NCBI RefSeq assembly: GCF_023169885.1
Contig: NZ_AP025516.1
Location: forward strand, 558,001-622,000
Reading direction: 5' to 3'
DNA: 64,000 bases
Origin: Desulfofustis limnaeus
GTDB lineage: Bacteria > Desulfobacterota > Desulfobulbia > Desulfobulbales > Desulfocapsaceae
Shown here: one piece after another, positions 4,961-39,042 of the stretch
Layout: every line of letters begins with the position of its first letter
Position numbering within the stretch: position 1 is the stretch's first letter
The notes under the pieces: generated by a model
What the model was told of the DNA's origin: nothing
The model's database searches: none
The model's input: the letters and a program-made list of their open reading frames with translations, nothing else
Program-made: the position numbers and the translations under genes

Positions 4961-6040
4961 ATGATCAAGCGGCGTGATACCAGGCGGATCATGGTCGGTT
5001 CGGTACCCATCGGCGGCGGTGCCCCGATCAGCGTACAGTCCATGACCAATACCGATACCGCCGATGTGGAGCGGACGGTCAGGCAGATCAAACAGCTCGA
5101 AGAGGCGGGCTGCGAGATCATTCGGGTGGCGGTCCCCGATCTGGAGGCCGCTCGGGCCATCCGCGCCATCCGTGCCGCCATCGACATCCCGCTTATTGCC
5201 GACATCCACTTTGATTGGCGTTTGGCGGTGGCGGCCATGGAGCACGGTGCTCAGGGGATCCGTATCAACCCCGGCAACCTCGGTGGTCCGGAAAAACTGG
5301 CCCGGACGGTGGCTGCCGCCAAACAGCATGGGGTGCCGATTCGGGTCGGGGTGAACAGCGGTTCGATCGAGAAGGATCTGTTGCACCGCTACGGCTATCC
5401 CACACCGGATCAGCCGACGGCGCTGATCGAAAGCGCCCTGCGCAATGTCCGTCTGCTGGAGCAGCAGGGATTTGCCGACATCAAGATATCGATCAAGTCC
5501 TCCGACGTACTGACTACCATTAACGGCTATCGTCAGCTCGCCCGGCAGGTCGATTATCCACTGCACCTCGGGGTTACCGAGGCCGGCGGCCTCATCGCCG
5601 GCACCGTCAAATCCAGTGTGGCGCTTGGGATTCTCCTCCATGAGGGGATTGGCGATACGCTGCGGATATCGTTGACCCGCGATCCGCTGGAAGAGGTGCA
5701 GGTGGCTTATAGCCTACTCCGTTCGCTGAAAATCAGGGAACGCGGGCCGGAACTGATTTCCTGCCCGACCTGCGGGCGGACCCGAATCGATCTCTTCGCA
5801 CTGGCCGATGAGGTGGAAAAGGCGATCCAGACCATGCGGACGCCGCTCAAGGTGGCGGTCATGGGCTGTGTCGTCAACGGGCCGGGCGAGGCCCGCGAAG
5901 CTGACATCGGCGTGGCCGGCGGGATCGGGGTCGGCATCATTTTCAAAAAAGGTGAACTGGTGAAAAAGGTGCCGGAAGAGGAATTGCTGACGGTATTTCT
6001 CGAAGAATTGCGTAAGATGGAAGGGTTCCTTGAAAAATAG
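4961..6040 (+). CDS. ispG: 4-hydroxy-3-methylbut-2-en-1-yl diphosphate synthase
   Basis: Iron-sulfur enzyme of the MEP pathway (GcpE) that reductively opens the cyclodiphosphate MEcPP to HMBPP. The N-terminal TIM-barrel region has the RRDTRRIMVG and SVQSMTNTDTADV motifs. The C-terminal cluster-binding region has SCPTCGRTRIDLF and MGCVVNGPGEA, supplying the Cys/Cys/Cys/Glu ligand pattern of the family. 359 residues. It is the last gene before the IS5-family insertion, which separates it from proS. Confidence 0.96.
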   Translation: MIKRRDTRRIMVGSVPIGGGAPISVQSMTNTDTADVERTVRQIKQLEEAGCEIIRVAVPDLEAARAIRAIRAAIDIPLIADIHFDWRLAVAAMEHGAQGIRINPGNLGGPEKLARTVAAAKQHGVPIRVGVNSGSIEKDLLHRYGYPTPDQPTALIESALRNVRLLEQQGFADIKISIKSSDVLTTINGYRQLARQVDYPLHLGVTEAGGLIAGTVKSSVALGILLHEGIGDTLRISLTRDPLEEVQVAYSLLRSLKIRERGPELISCPTCGRTRIDLFALADEVEKAIQTMRTPLKVAVMGCVVNGPGEAREADIGVAGGIGVGIIFKKGELVKKVPEEELLTVFLEELRKMEGFLEK

Positions 6041-6110
6041 GATCTAAAAATCTGCCAAATTATTCAAAAAATCAGCGAAAAATCTCTGAAAATATATTAA
6101 TATCAAGAAG
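6041..6110. other. AT-rich spacer between ispG and the IS5-family element
   Basis: A short AT-rich stretch directly after the ispG stop, rich in A and T runs. I see no strong stem followed by a T run, so no terminator is called. Together with 7294-7421 it is what remains of the original ispG-proS spacer. Confidence 0.4.
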
Positions 6111-7293
6111 TTGAACATTATTTCGTCATCTCAATCCCATTTTCAGAGATAGCGCCATGAAACAATTCGGACTCTTCGACTATCACAAACGCCTCTCCCG
6201 GATCGATAAAGCCGGTGATCCACTGGTCGAGCTCAACAAGGTGGTTGACTGGGAACAGTTCCGTGTCCTCATCAACCGCGCACTTGAGAAACCGCGCAAA
6301 TCTCCAGCCGGCGCCAAGGGCTACGATCCGATCCTGCTGTTCAAGATCCTGATCCTTCAGTCTTTGTACAATCTCTCCGACGAGGCCATGGAGTATCAGA
6401 TTCTCGATCGTTACTCGTTTTCCCGGTTCCTCGGTATTCGTGAAGGCGCCAAGGTGCCCGATGCCACCACCATCTTCCGCTTCCGGGATGAATTGGCCAA
6501 AGCCGGTGTGGTGGAACTGTTGTTTACCCAATTCGATCAATTTCTCCGAGAACATGGTTTCCGGGCCCAGAAAGGCCAGATCGTTGATGCCAACATCGTT
6601 CGCGTTCCCATCCAACGTAACAGCCGGGAAGAAAACGAGGATATCAAAGCCGGCAAACCGATCGCATCATGGGACGAACCGAAACGCCGGCAAAAAGACA
6701 CGGATGCCCGCTGGACCAAGAAGAACGGCAAAGCGTTCTTTGGCTACAAGAACCATGTCAGTATTGATGTCGGTCACAAGTTCATTCGCAGCTATGAGGT
6801 CACCGACGCCAGTGTCCATGACAGCCAGGTGTTTACCGAGTTGCTTGACCCGGACAATACCAGTAAAGATGTCTGGGCCGACTCCGCTTATCGTTCTGAA
6901 GAATCGCTGCAGGAGCTGCAGACGCAAGGCTTTCGCGAACATCTGCAACGCAAGGGCTGCCGCCATAAGAAACTGACTGCAAGAGAGCAACAAGGCAACC
7001 GGAGCAGAGCGAAGATACGCAGTCGTGTCGAGCATGTCTTTGGGGTGATAGCCATGCGTACCGGCAGCACGCTGATGCGGGGAATAGGCATGGTCAGGAT
7101 CAGAGCCAAGATCGGTTTGCGTAATTTGGCTTACAACGTCAGCCGTTTTGCGTTGCTGTCTGCCGTTTAACAGGAGACGTGCGCCTACAGAACGAAAAAG
7201 GCGCACATAGGCTCCTGGAGGACCAGCAAGCGCAATCAAAATGGCAGAAAATCGACTCATCGTCGGCACAATTTGACGAAAAACAGTGTTCAA
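6111..7293 (+). mobile_element. IS5-family insertion sequence, apparently complete
   Basis: About 1183 bp holding one transposase gene. The proposed ends are imperfect inverted repeats: 6111-6128 on the left and 7274-7293 on the right, which read TTGAACA..TTTCGTCA when the right end is complemented, with a two-base length difference between them. Size and single-gene content fit the IS5 family. I could not identify a convincing target duplication, so the exact ends remain uncertain by several bases. The element interrupts the otherwise conserved ispG-proS run. Confidence 0.7.
6157..7170 (+). CDS. IS5-family DDE transposase
   Basis: Transposase of 337 residues. N-terminal DNA-binding part with YDPILLFKILILQ and the DATTIFRFRDEL motif. 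The DDE catalytic residues are visible as Asp144 (VDANIVR), Asp242 (WADSAYRS) and Glu292 (RVEHVFGV). The frame is intact, so the element may be active. ATG 6157 follows the left inverted repeat by about 30 bases. The family is widespread in Proteobacteria; the exact subgroup needs a database comparison. Confidence 0.93.
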   Translation: MKQFGLFDYHKRLSRIDKAGDPLVELNKVVDWEQFRVLINRALEKPRKSPAGAKGYDPILLFKILILQSLYNLSDEAMEYQILDRYSFSRFLGIREGAKVPDATTIFRFRDELAKAGVVELLFTQFDQFLREHGFRAQKGQIVDANIVRVPIQRNSREENEDIKAGKPIASWDEPKRRQKDTDARWTKKNGKAFFGYKNHVSIDVGHKFIRSYEVTDASVHDSQVFTELLDPDNTSKDVWADSAYRSEESLQELQTQGFREHLQRKGCRHKKLTAREQQGNRSRAKIRSRVEHVFGVIAMRTGSTLMRGIGMVRIRAKIGLRNLAYNVSRFALLSAV

Positions 7294-7421
7294 GATTGCA
7301 AATTTTTATTGTTCAGCAACGATTTCTTTAAAAATGTCATTATTCAAGCTGCCCGGAAGAGGAGCGGCTCACTCAATCATGAAACCAGGCGCAGCCATGC
7401 GCCCTACAGGGACTGGAAACC

Positions 7422-9137
7422 ATGCGATATTCTCAGATACTCATACCGACCCTCAAGGAAGATCCGGCCGAGGCCGAGGTGGTCAGCCACCGGCTATTGC
7501 TGCGGGCCGGCTCCATCAGGAAACTGACCGCCGGCGTTTACACCTATCTGCCTTACGGGCTGGCGGCTATTCGCCGGGTGGAGAACATCGTTCGCGAGGA
7601 GATGAATCGAGCCGGGGCCCAGGAGGTGCTCATGCCGATGGTACAGCCTGCCGACCTTTGGCAGGAATCGGGCCGTTACGAGAAATACGGACCGGAGTTA
7701 CTGCGTTTTCGCGACCGACATGAACGTGAATCCTGCCTCGGGCCGACCCACGAGGAGGTCATTACCGATATCGCCCGTCGAGAGCTGCATTCCTATCGCG
7801 ATCTGCCGGTCAACCTCTATCAGATCCAGACCAAGTTCCGCGACGAGATACGGCCGCGCTTCGGTTTAATGCGGGGCCGGGAGTTCATCATGAAGGACGC
7901 CTATTCCTTCGATACAGATGATGCGGGCGCCGAACAATCGTATCGCAAGATGCATGAGGCGTATACCCGTATCTTCACCCGTTGCGGTCTCGAATTCCGT
8001 TGCGTCGAGGCCGATTCCGGTGCCATCGGCGGCAGCTTCTCTCACGAGTTCATGGTGCTGGCGGCTACCGGTGAAGATACCATCGCCGTCTGTACCGCCT
8101 GTGACTGGGCCGCCAATCTGGAAAAAGCGGCAGTCAAGCTGGGTCCGCAACCGGCCGCGGTCGATCCGTTGCCGCTGGTCAAAGTGGAAACGCCCGGTAT
8201 GAAAAAGGTGGAGACGGTCTGCGAATTTCTCGGTGTCGAACCGGAACGGCTGGTCAAGACCATGGTCTACCTGGCTGACGGGGTACCGGTGGCGGTATTG
8301 CTCCGGGGCGATCGAGAACTGGAAGAAGTGAAGCTGAAGAATTATCTCAGGGCCAAAGATATCAGGATGGCTCAGGACCAGGAGGTATTTGACGCTACTG
8401 GAGTCCCGGTTGGTTATCTGGGGCCGGTCGGCCTTTCTCTCCGGTTGCTGGCCGACCAGGAAGTGATGCGCGTGGCTAATGCCATCGTCGGTGCCAACGA
8501 GAAGAATTTCCATCTGCAGAATGTCAACCCAGGTCGTGATTTCCAGGTTGCCGAGGTCGCCGATTTCCGTCAAATCTGCGCCAGCGACCCGTGTCCTTCC
8601 TGCGGCGGCGCGCTACGGCTGGTGGAGGGTATTGAAGTCGGCCACATCTTCAAACTCGGCACGGCCTATTCCGAGGCGATGAATGCCCGGTTTCAGGACC
8701 AGCAGGGCAACGACCGACCGCTGATCATGGGGTGCTACGGTATCGGAGTGAGCCGGGTGGTGGCTGCAGCCATCGAACAGAATCATGATGCCAACGGTAT
8801 CATCTTCCCGGTGCCGCTGGCTCCGTACCCGGTCACGATCCTCAACCTGGGCAACAAGGATGAGGCTATCACCGCGGTGGCGGAACAGCTCTATACCCAG
8901 TTGCAGGAGGCTGGCATCGACGCCTTCCTCGACGATCGGGATGAACGGCCCGGCTCGAAATTCAAAGATGCCGACCTGCTCGGGTTTCCGTTTCGCATTA
9001 CGGTTGGCAAGCGTTATGCCGAAAGCGGCATGGTTGAGTTGCGCCGGAGGCGCGACGGCTTCACCGAAGAGGTCGAGGTGGCTGGTCTGGTGGAGTTGGT
9101 GCGGCAGCGGTTGAACGAGGAAAGCGCAGGCAGGTGA
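7422..9137 (+). CDS. proS: Prolyl-tRNA synthetase
   Basis: Class II aminoacyl-tRNA synthetase that charges tRNA-Pro. At 571 residues it is the long bacterial type with an editing (INS) insertion. Class II motifs are visible: RAGSIRKLTAGVYTYLPYGL (motif 1 region), FRDEIRPRFGLMRGREFIMK (motif 2) and GCYGIGVSRVVAA (motif 3). The C-terminal anticodon-binding domain runs from about residue 465. The gene ends in a GTGA overlap with the rel gene. Because an insertion sequence lies upstream, its promoter must be in 7171-7421 or within the element. Confidence 0.96.
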   Translation: MRYSQILIPTLKEDPAEAEVVSHRLLLRAGSIRKLTAGVYTYLPYGLAAIRRVENIVREEMNRAGAQEVLMPMVQPADLWQESGRYEKYGPELLRFRDRHERESCLGPTHEEVITDIARRELHSYRDLPVNLYQIQTKFRDEIRPRFGLMRGREFIMKDAYSFDTDDAGAEQSYRKMHEAYTRIFTRCGLEFRCVEADSGAIGGSFSHEFMVLAATGEDTIAVCTACDWAANLEKAAVKLGPQPAAVDPLPLVKVETPGMKKVETVCEFLGVEPERLVKTMVYLADGVPVAVLLRGDRELEEVKLKNYLRAKDIRMAQDQEVFDATGVPVGYLGPVGLSLRLLADQEVMRVANAIVGANEKNFHLQNVNPGRDFQVAEVADFRQICASDPCPSCGGALRLVEGIEVGHIFKLGTAYSEAMNARFQDQQGNDRPLIMGCYGIGVSRVVAAAIEQNHDANGIIFPVPLAPYPVTILNLGNKDEAITAVAEQLYTQLQEAGIDAFLDDRDERPGSKFKDADLLGFPFRITVGKRYAESGMVELRRRRDGFTEEVEVAGLVELVRQRLNEESAGR

Positions 9138-29355: not shown

Positions 29356-29832
29356 ATGAGCGACAACCTCTCTCGAGAAGCAGTTCAGCAAGACGTTGCC
29401 AGGAAGGGGGGCGGCGAGGAGGCTTCGTCGCCGCCGTGCTTGGCGCGCAGTCGCAGCTACTGCAATTTCTGCGTGGGGTACTGCTGCTATCGCTTGCCCG
29501 GGGCCACACTCTATCTTGACTCCCTCGATATCAACCGGATCGCCCGTCATCTCGGAATCTCCGACGGGGTGGTTCGGATGCGGTATCTGGAGGGAAAGAA
29601 CACCTTCAAGGTCAATACTGACGGATCCTGCATCTTTCTCAGCCACGACAGGATTCGGTCCCGATGCACCATCCATGCCGCTCGGCCCCGGCAGTGCCGA
29701 GAATTTCCCTACGATCAGCCGTTCCCGTATCTGGAACGTGAAGATCTCTTGGTGGCCATCTTGCCCAAGATTGAACAGTGGTTGGCCAAACCCTTCGAGG
29801 TATCTCACCACGTGGCGCGGGATTCGGCCTGA
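29356..29832 (+). CDS. YkgJ-type cysteine-cluster protein
   Basis: 158 residues. The zinc/iron-chelating cluster is CNFCVGYCCYRL near the N-terminus, then GSCIFL, and SRCTIHAARPRQCREFP, the standard YkgJ/CxxCxxCC pattern. Function of the family is not established; a metal-binding or flagellin-modifying role has been suggested for relatives. ATG 29356 follows GGAGG by 5 bases. The open frame extends to 29299 but that part is not conserved in type. Confidence 0.8.
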   Translation: MSDNLSREAVQQDVARKGGGEEASSPPCLARSRSYCNFCVGYCCYRLPGATLYLDSLDINRIARHLGISDGVVRMRYLEGKNTFKVNTDGSCIFLSHDRIRSRCTIHAARPRQCREFPYDQPFPYLEREDLLVAILPKIEQWLAKPFEVSHHVARDSA

Positions 29833-32383: not shown

Positions 32384-32905
32384 GTGACCATTTGTAATTG
32401 CAAGAAAAAGGGAGCGATGCATGTCATTTGGGGGGGCGTAGCGGTCCTGATGGTGTGTCTGCTGGTCTCGGTATTGCTGATCGGCTGTGCGGGCAAACCG
32501 GAAAAAAGTTATCTGATGGACGGCCGCCAGTTGCAATGGGACGATATGAATCGGGACCAGCGCAAACGTCACATGCGTCAGGAGGTGGTGCCGCTGGCCC
32601 AAGCGATCTTTCAATCCTGGCGCCCGGAACGGTTCAGCACGGTCAGTTGCTTCCTGTGCCATGGTGAAGGTGCGGGGATTGACGATTTTCACATGCCGAC
32701 CGAGCATCTGCCGCGGCTCAGCGGCGAACTCTTCCTCAGCTCCGAGTTTCGCAATCATCCGGACACGACCCGGCTCAAACTGGATCGATTGGTGCCGGGG
32801 ATGGCTGAAATTCTCGGGAAAAGACAATTCAGCCTGATCACCCGACGCGGCTTTGGTTGCTATTCGTGTCACGTGGGACCCGCCGGGCCGCAGTTCGGCA
32901 ATTGA
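32384..32905 (+). CDS. Di-haem c-type cytochrome lipoprotein
   Basis: 173 residues. The lipobox LLIGC (Cys35) after a hydrophobic signal predicts lipid anchoring. Two haem-binding CxxCH motifs are visible: CFLCH (89-93) and CYSCH (159-163), each followed by Gly-rich sequence (HGEGAG and HVGPAG). The domain between is not a classical cytochrome c fold that I recognise. GTG 32384 has GGGAG upstream; ATG 32417 is an alternative that would still keep the lipobox. It is probably cotranscribed with the methyltransferase 48 bp upstream. Confidence 0.75.
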   Translation: MTICNCKKKGAMHVIWGGVAVLMVCLLVSVLLIGCAGKPEKSYLMDGRQLQWDDMNRDQRKRHMRQEVVPLAQAIFQSWRPERFSTVSCFLCHGEGAGIDDFHMPTEHLPRLSGELFLSSEFRNHPDTTRLKLDRLVPGMAEILGKRQFSLITRRGFGCYSCHVGPAGPQFGN

Positions 32906-32956
32906 GCCGGCATTGTGCGGCTTGGCTGCCCAGTTCAATTGCGGAGGTGGAGGGTG

Positions 32957-37719: not shown

Positions 37720-38180
37720 GATGCGTACCTTGTGGGAGGAGGGGTGGAACTGAAAAATCGTCTGTGCTTCCAGCAGTCCTTTTGATCGCCTGATCGAGGC
37801 CGTAACGGTCGGTGTAACGGTGGTTCGCCGCGGCCTCGATCCTGCCGATAAAGGGTCGGTGGAAACAACGGCGACAGCTTCATTTCCGCCAGCATACCAG
37901 AGATCGAGAGAAAAACAACATGGTTAACTTGTTAGAATAAAATGATTAAATCGTTTCAGCGAGATAGGGTTCATGTCGCTAAACGGCAACAGCGGTGACA
38001 CCACTAATGACCATCTGTACGGCAGGGGGGGACAAGGCTCAGTGAGTTGCTCACGCCAGATGTGGGATTGTTGGTTCCCGGTATGGTATACTGCACGTTG
38101 TCCGGACGGCCGCAGCCCGGCTCTGACATTTCCGCCGGGAACGGGCCGAACGATGAAACCTTGCCACAGAGGAGATAACG
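37720..38180. other. Divergent intergenic region before the selenoprotein gene
   Basis: About 460 bp between the leftward TPR lipoprotein gene and the rightward selenoprotein gene. An AT-rich stretch near 37915-37965 is the best place for promoters. A short open frame at 37973-38197 has no Shine-Dalgarno and an uncharacteristic composition, so I do not call it. Confidence 0.45.
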
Positions 38181-38987
38181 ATGCCGTTAGACCTTGAACG
38201 ATTCAGGGCCGCCTACGATCAGTGGGTAGAGGAGAGCCTGCCGGATTACCAGGCGGGCAAGATGGATCAGATCGTCAAGAAGTATCCGTTTGTTGTCCCC
38301 GACGATATCCCCTGGACGCCGTACCGCGGAAAACCTGCCGATCAGACTTTCGGGTTGGTGACCAGCGGTGGCCTCTATCTCAAAGGGAGCCAGGAGCCCT
38401 TCGACACCGTCTCCATCCATGGGGACACGACCTTTCGCGAAATTCCGAAAACGGTACGCCAGGAAGATATCGGCATCGCCCATCCTCACTATGATCATGG
38501 TCTGGCCCAACAGGATGTCAACGTGGTTTTTCCAGCTCAACGACTGGTTGAGATGGAAGAAGAACGGATCATCGGCCGTTTTGCCGAGACCTGTTACAGT
38601 TTCAGTTACGTCAACGACGTGATCACCCTGATCGAGAAGACGATTCCCGACCTGATTAGTCGGCTCAAGGCCCGCAGCGTCGACGTCCTGCTGCTGGTAC
38701 CGGTCTGACCCAAATGCCATCAGACCGTGGGTCTGATCCAGCGAATGGTCGAAGAGGCGGGAATACCAACCATCTCCACCGGTAACGCCATAGATCGGAT
38801 GAACCTGATCAAACCGCCGCGCGCCTTTCTGGTGAAATTCGCCCGGGGCAGTATGTTCGGCGAACCGGGCAACACCGCACGGCAGAGCCGCATCCTCATG
38901 GATGCGCTCGATGCGCTGCAGACCATGACGGTGCCGGGAACCATCAAGGAACTGCCGTATAAGTGGAAACGGCCCGATCCTGAGTGA
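38181..38987 (+). CDS. GrdB-family selenoprotein with in-frame TGA (Sec176)
   Basis: Read through the TGA at 38706-38708, the frame continues to TGA 38985-38987 and gives 268 residues with selenocysteine at 176. The segment VPVUPKCHQTVG has a UxxC redox motif, and the flanks (GIAHPHYDHGLAQQDVNVVFP before, EEAGIPTISTGNAIDRMN and FVKF/ARGSMFGEPGN-like sequence after) match the selenoprotein B family of glycine/betaine/sarcosine/D-proline reductases. A SECIS-like hairpin follows the TGA. ATG 38181 has GAGGAG upstream. No other reductase subunits are near, so it is probably a stand-alone redox member; the substrate is unknown. A gene finder would split it in two. Confidence 0.85.
38719..38737 (+). 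promoter_or_regulatory. SECIS-like hairpin for selenocysteine insertion
   Basis: Perfect 8-pair stem ATCAGACC / GGTCTGAT (38719-38726 and 38730-38737) with loop GTG. The loop begins 18 bases after the TGA, and its first base is G, as required in bacterial SelB-binding hairpins. It lies within the coding sequence, as bacterial SECIS elements do. Confidence 0.75.
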
Positions 38988-38992
38988 GATGA

Positions 38993-39042
38993 GCAGCGTC
39001 CGTCCGTTGAATCCTTACGAACGGACGCTGCAAACGCTTTTT
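38993..39042 (+). terminator. Strong intrinsic terminator after the selenoprotein gene
   Basis: Perfect 11-pair stem GCAGCGTCCGT / ACGGACGCTGC (38993-39003 and 39021-39031) followed by CAAACGC and five T (39038-39042). It starts 6 bp after the selenoprotein stop and directly abuts the end of the convergent RND pump gene. Confidence 0.85.

Follow-up and report, generated by a model that had tools for sequence, protein, structure and literature searches.

The locus studied here raises two linked questions: whether a TGA within an otherwise continuous reading frame of Desulfofustis limnaeus encodes selenocysteine (Sec), and whether the product is a component of an amino acid reductase or a separate enzyme. 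Desulfofustis are sulfate reducers of the phylum Desulfobacterota. The stretch of DNA analysed, referred to as the window, comprises 64,000 nucleotides and corresponds to bases 558001-622000 of a 4.23 Mb genome consisting of one contig. Two open frames, 38181-38705 and 38709-38984, share the same phase, and the TGA at 38706-38708 is their sole break; this layout, first described in a sequence-only reading of the window, was confirmed by re-reading and by translation with TGA as U. Read in this way, a single selenoprotein gene (38181-38987, forward strand) runs from an ATG to its true stop, TGA at 38985-38987, and encodes 268 amino acids with Sec as residue 176. Seven orthologues are also 268 residues long, and the PrdB profile aligned across the TGA. 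A ribosome-binding-like AGGAGA is seen 5' of the ATG (38170-38175, forward strand). The gene is preceded by a TPR-repeat gene and followed by an RND efflux gene, both on the opposite strand, and thus stands as a unit of its own; judged by this layout, it is monocistronic. Downstream lies a terminator-like hairpin (38993-39031, forward strand; -25.3 kcal/mol, z -4.8), followed within a few bases by a run of T. The earlier call of a strong terminator holds as to the strength of the hairpin, but the hairpin is not among the results of a terminator consensus scan.

Eight orthologues were compared, namely that of the window, six loci from the genome collection with 69-85% identity, and one from the phylum search (G411 = L107). 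In the alignment, codon 176 is TGA in 8/8, window included, whereas the final stop at codon 269 is TGA in three and TAA in five. Residue U176 aligns with the Sec or Cys of PrdB proteins, and translation and homologue alignment agree on a UxxC motif, U-P-K-C, formed by U176 and C179 (38706-38717, forward strand), as had been suggested. On the 3' side of the TGA, dN/dS lay between 0.06 and 0.20 for six pairs among four orthologues, ratios that are rough because several dS values exceed 1 and are saturated. By this measure the codons 3' of the TGA are under purifying selection at the protein level.

The DNA itself is constrained in one place only. Across the 804-base coding sequence of the eight orthologues, the sole invariant run of at least 8 columns spans 20 bases (CDS 538-557, window 38718-38737), and this lone run is the hairpin just 3' of the TGA, at the spacing of a bacterial SECIS element. 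Within it, codons 180-185 use one codon each (6/6), compared with 7/117 of the other degenerate amino-acid-invariant columns outside 179-186. The stem reads ATCAGACC-GTG-GGTCTGAT (38719-38737, forward strand), with a G opening the loop 18 bases past the TGA; the perfect eight-pair hairpin described from the window alone thus proved to be invariant in 8/8 orthologues. Together with its lower stem this SECIS-like hairpin folds at -16.5 kcal/mol (z -2.8), none of 200 shuffles being as good, and it was found in 8/8 orthologues versus 35/240 control sequences in which the same peptides were recoded at random with synonymous codons. We also applied a simple hairpin test, defined as at least 4 pairs, a loop starting 14-24 bases past the TGA and a G in the first two places of the loop. 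This was passed by 62/69 of all Sec homologues versus 137/1380 in-frame control positions. The other short forms with Sec from the same phylum all passed (38/38; recoded control 312/1140), as did 15/20 long forms (147/600) and 1/3 PrdB genes with Sec (16/90), while none of the three Cys forms did (4/90). The failures among Sec homologues thus comprise 5 of the 20 long forms and 2 of the 3 PrdB genes. With TGA conserved in all eight orthologues, a frozen hairpin and protein constraint downstream, the proposed recoding is upheld, and on this comparative evidence the TGA at 38706-38708 is a Sec codon within one gene of 268 residues.

We searched the genome for the selenocysteine machinery, a check suggested with the original observation, and found most of it. 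A tRNA-Sec (selC; 72.5 bits, anticodon UCA as read in the alignment), SelB (364.7 bits, cut-off 242) and two SelD (369.7 and 365.5 bits, with one in-frame TGA each) are present. The SelD genes lie in the same genome at about 11250-12298 of L024 and about 5565-6620 of L026, both on the forward strand, with the in-frame TGA near the N-terminus. The SelA model TIGR00474 had no match in the readable genome. SelA was matched in 51/58 sampled genomes, 49 of them over the cut-off and Desulfofustis glycolicus among them; in D. glycolicus, selA adjoins genes whose counterparts in the genome of the window border a run of N. Since its syntenic slot reads N, we do not take the missing match as an absence. 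Another route of Sec synthesis was considered and rejected, given SelA in 51/58 genomes and a run of N at its syntenic place between conserved neighbours. A weak match to PF03841 (19.4 bits, cut-off 22.8) was likewise discarded as SelA; it is a PLP enzyme that by eye resembles cystathionine gamma-synthase.

Homologues were sought in samples of genomes from the class and the phylum, which do not cover all species. The class sample gave matches in 20/257 genomes (E 1e-10), and its 25 matches comprised four orthologues of 268 residues (that of the window included), 20 long forms and one fragment. In the phylum sample, relatives of PrdB occurred in 94/395 genomes (E 1e-8), seven of which have the weakest matches (E about 1e-10) and may encode GRDB-type proteins of another sort. 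Among the best 30 places of this sample, those given as loci, 29 contained exactly one TGA and the remaining one is G601; of the roughly 90 other matches, ten were retrieved for reading and the rest are known by their table rows; there were four further partial matches without the TGA of the site (G514, the two-piece G281 and G494). The D. limnaeus genome holds one relative only, the gene itself, in protein and profile searches with E limits of 1e-10 and 1e-8.

The residue at the Sec site could be read in 73 homologues including that of the window, and was U in 69, C in three and G in one. As to whether homologues carry Sec or Cys at position 176, those of the same phylum with a readable site have Sec in 66 of 67, Gly in one and Cys in none. 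The three Cys forms are two homologues on alphaproteobacterial plasmids and one Paraclostridium protein of the PrdB branch. The Gly form (G601, L112; 7264-8076, forward strand) has GGA instead of TGA at codon 170 and keeps an eight-pair hairpin, and may either have lost Sec recently or owe its GGA to an error in sequencing. Residue 179 is Cys in 69/73 homologue rows and Asp in four, and the UxxC exchange is therefore not universal in the wider family. A clade supported at 100/99, consisting of L117 (529-1371, forward strand), L119, L129 and L134, reads U-P-L-D-H-Q, with Sec lacking the second Cys; two of its members precede a gene that by eye is methyltransferase-like. The long forms (L031-L050) have roughly 400-440 residues, with a PrdB-type N-terminal domain (U-P-x-C-T-R-A-V-G) and an unnamed C-terminal part. 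Classing them as GrdB by length was rejected, as two of them scored far below the GrdB cut-offs, and PF09338 was absent from the 11 genomes searched of the 18 that hold them. Outside the phylum, a plasmid of Ligilactobacillus salivarius (L148) carries prdA, a Sec-type prdB with an in-frame TGA and the yedF selenium gene, and further prdB matches were seen on Enterococcus plasmids.

The best NCBIfam match of the window protein was PrdB (TIGR04483), with 130.1 bits over residues 39-263, below the cut-off of 300; control PrdB proteins from plasmids of Acetoanaerobium (L147) and Ligilactobacillus (L148) scored 421 and 402.5 bits on this model. The alignment runs unbroken through the TGA, which agrees with the view that family-like sequence continues across it. 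The Pfam GRDB model PF07355 gave 25.9 bits over residues 39-172, above its gathering cut-off of 22, whereas the GrdB-type models TIGR01917 (38.2 bits, cut-off 602), TIGR01918 (37.5, cut-off 65), NF040794 (35.1, cut-off 800) and NF040795 (33.4, cut-off 775) all remained under their cut-offs, placing the protein outside GrdB, GrdF and GrdH. The label of GrdB family given to this gene at first sight is therefore borne out at the level of PF07355, but length and GrdB-model scores are not GrdB-like and the nearest named family is PrdB.

A tree was built from 73 domain sequences, from which the fragment L051, which lacks the site, was left out, as it was from the site and hairpin counts. In this tree 30/70 inner branches reach the safe mark, and L140, L143 and L146 form long branches. 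The eight window-type proteins form one clade (100/100), the four PrdB rows another branch (100/100) and the 20 long forms a third (100/100); PrdB falls nearest to short U-G-x-C-N forms with a support of 90/89, below the safe-branch mark. Seven residues (H101, D112, P118, E191, R214, G223 and G227) are invariant in every row aligned there (73-74), and R86, N114 and T197 are kept in 99% of aligned homologue rows. An AlphaFold model made with seven orthologues had a mean pLDDT of 60.6, with residues 63-116 below 50, and its fold matches in the PDB were weak (best E 0.028); a sequence search of the PDB returned one match only (E 0.041) and no credible relative. The selenoprotein is closer to PrdB than to GrdB, and is a member of a known selenoprotein superfamily within a clade for which we met no separate name.

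We then considered whether a partner subunit is present. PF09338 is the family of the pyruvoyl partners (PrdA/GrdE) and component B subunits, and it matched prdA in the L. salivarius record. The readable sequence of 21 same-phylum genomes, D. glycolicus included, gave no match (0/21; 0/4 in the first four). The built-in control genomes of these searches were without a match, and real prd/grd records were subsequently added as a control; in that run 3/7 matched, namely all three plasmid records of proline/glycine reducers, those of Ligilactobacillus, Acetoanaerobium and Peptoclostridium (W01, W02 and W05), with no match in the genome of the window, in D. glycolicus or in the Haematobacter or Roseomonas plasmids. 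The initial observation that no other reductase subunits adjoin the gene is thus confirmed, both flanks lying on the other strand and the readable genome holding no member of the PrdA/GrdE family. Within the readable part of the genome, these profile searches confirm that the gene stands alone, and a partner may be encoded in the unread stretches.

Neighbouring genes were compared by BLAST, in which the frames around 46 loci were searched all against all, and by listing of nearest neighbours, with heuristic gene calls and gaps (longest frames, starts extrapolated from the profile). No adjoining neighbour recurred among the eight orthologues where readable, and some loci end at contig ends. Conserved neighbours were rejected as a clue to the substrate, the recurring sets being mostly antisense frames or the shared synteny of a few loci. 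In D. glycolicus (L067), whose strain DSM 9705 carries an orthologue with 76% identity, the selenoprotein gene (6001-6807) lies directly between a gene for a small cysteine-motif protein and a haem c-like CxxCH gene (5525-5929 and 7046-7477). In the window, the counterparts of these flanking genes (29386-29790 and 32483-32914) lie upstream of the selenoprotein gene at 38181-38987, separated from it by 5 to 9 kb. This linkage to two genes within the genus makes a partner outside PF09338 possible.

In PrdB and GrdB, the amino substrate is held by the pyruvoyl group of a partner subunit, next to which a Sec nucleophile acts. For the window protein no pyruvoyl partner was found; therefore no Schiff-base binding of amino acids as in PrdA-PrdB is expected, and the substrate is in turn probably not D-proline. 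We propose that UGA 38706-38708 would be decoded as selenocysteine by SelB and tRNA-Sec, with the hairpin at 38719-38737 as the directing signal, and that the product would be a stand-alone PrdB relative working as a small reductase. The selenolate of Sec176 would attack an electrophilic substrate, or a polarised bond of the substrate, held in a putative pocket by residues common with PrdB (R86, H101, D112, N114, E191 and R214). Cys179 would then resolve the adduct, giving a selenenyl sulfide to be reduced by a thioredoxin-like donor. We consider this explanation as a whole to be likely. The selenoprotein is most likely a Sec-dependent reductase, to judge from its relatives and conserved residues, and the original suggestion of a separate redox enzyme rather than a reductase component is the best reading of the data.

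The alternative that survives best, though we hold it to be unlikely, is a general thiol-disulfide oxidoreductase or a protein of peroxide or metal stress, in which the UxxC would act as a thioredoxin-like pair without a small substrate. The motif itself is consistent with such a role. In two relatives outside the clade of the window (L115 and L114) the gene follows a copper-type P-ATPase-like gene, and two others outside it (L112 and L122) adjoin a small c-type cytochrome, all as judged by eye. The gaps between the P-type ATPase-like gene and the PrdB-like gene are about 8 and -1 bases in L115 (4064-6898) and L114, respectively. However, His, Asp, Asn, Arg and Glu residues conserved beyond the UxxC and common to PrdB point to a substrate pocket, one clade has Asp for the second Cys, and neighbours are not conserved. 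Far less probable is a true PrdB, that is, a D-proline reductase subunit whose PrdA is encoded in another part of the genome or within unread sequence. PrdB is the best NCBIfam match, at least one stretch of the genome is unread, and a 'proline reductase' selenoprotein is listed for Anaeromyxobacter and a Geobacter in the accessible text of one survey (PMC1794560). Nevertheless, the selenoprotein reaches 130 of the 300 required bits, where the plasmid PrdB proteins reach 421 and 402.5; it falls in a separate clade; and PF09338 is missing from all 21 same-phylum genomes, the same-genus D. glycolicus included. Hardly credible at all is a pair of genes, the first ending at TGA 38706-38708 and the second beginning at GTG 38727: an in-frame GTG does follow the TGA, with an ORF of 86 codons open from there, and is identical in all eight orthologues, but it forms the loop of a hairpin in which every base is frozen, the loop codon of relatives is not always a start codon (GTA in L116, GTC in L137), the PrdB profile crosses the TGA without a break, three homologues have Cys mid-frame in a continuous frame, and hairpins of the same spacing occur in each of the 38 other short same-phylum Sec homologues.

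The preferred reading, a stand-alone Sec-dependent reductase, may extend beyond this genome. Tentatively, and with somewhat less than even confidence, we suggest that widespread Sec enzymes of Desulfobacterota employ the active site of PrdB in the absence of a pyruvoyl partner, and with it cleave reductively a non-amino substrate to which an enzyme has yet to be assigned. If this is true, the 'D-proline reductase' counts of selenoproteome surveys would mostly represent partnerless PrdB-type enzymes. What evolutionary comparison does indicate is that a lone PrdB-type gene is a working selenoprotein gene in bacteria where the searches revealed no partner from a proline or glycine reductase. Mechanical reading halts at the TGA and the family names are those of proline reductase or selenoprotein B, and therefore the real reaction is overlooked.

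PrdB selenoproteins have been counted in surveys since 2005 (PMC1088965, PMC2398784, PMC1794560). According to the accessible portions of these papers, the Sargasso Sea yielded 42 of them (PMC1088965) and the GOS data 235 that carry UxxC (PMC2398784), and a 'proline reductase' selenoprotein was assigned to Anaeromyxobacter dehalogenans and Geobacter uraniumreducens (PMC1794560). A 2022 review, in its available text, places PrdB among the five bacterial selenoproteins with the widest distribution (PMC9312934), and the available part of a 2026 review names GrdB and D-proline reductase as families of this kind, D-proline reductase being a Sec enzyme (PMC13188914). FarB/FarE, a proposed fluoroacetate reductase, provides a precedent within the family for action on a non-amino substrate, with a GrdE-type partner kept; the same paper cites work on how GrdE and PrdA are processed to the pyruvoyl form (PMC10838667). 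Our literature searches, which covered few subscription papers, returned no paper on a stand-alone, PrdA-less or 'PrdB-like' PrdB or on a 'selenoprotein B family protein', and none on Desulfofustis together with selenocysteine.

Several known systems can be compared with the window protein. The proteins annotated as 'glycine/sarcosine/betaine reductase selenoprotein B family protein' on Haematobacter and Roseomonas plasmids resemble it in having no adjacent reductase partner and no PF09338 on the plasmids. However, they carry Cys in place of Sec, have no SECIS-like hairpin, and share about 29% identity with it. The marine 'PrdB' proteins of the surveys (PMC1088965, PMC2398784) are, like the window protein, UxxC selenoproteins, and are filed under PrdB or pfam07355, while those of Deltaproteobacteria (PMC1794560) are listed as 'proline reductase', a likeness drawn from their description only; they were named by homology, and the accessible text of the surveys does not discuss a missing PrdA. 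With GrdB of glycine/sarcosine/betaine reductase (PF07355, TIGR01917/01918) it shares the UxxC motif, which GrdB is stated to carry in the available part of the 2026 review (PMC13188914), and its score exceeds the Pfam GRDB cut-off in an alignment to the C-terminal portion of the model. On the other hand, it has 268 residues against a GrdB model of 431 positions, and no PF09338 (GrdE-type) member was found with it. The closest comparison is with PrdB (TIGR04483), with which it has in common the domain at residues 39-263, an aligned Sec in UxxC, a similar length (the PrdB model has 238 positions) and the same invariant His, Asp, Asn, Arg and Glu. In contrast to PrdB, it scores 130 bits against a cut-off of 300 and belongs to a separate 100/100 clade, and its gene has no adjacent PrdA, PrdD or proline racemase gene as in the L. 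salivarius cluster. The two also differ around the Sec residue itself, where the window protein reads U-P-K-C-H-Q-T-V-G and PrdB reads U-G-T-C-H-R-[ST]-[AS].
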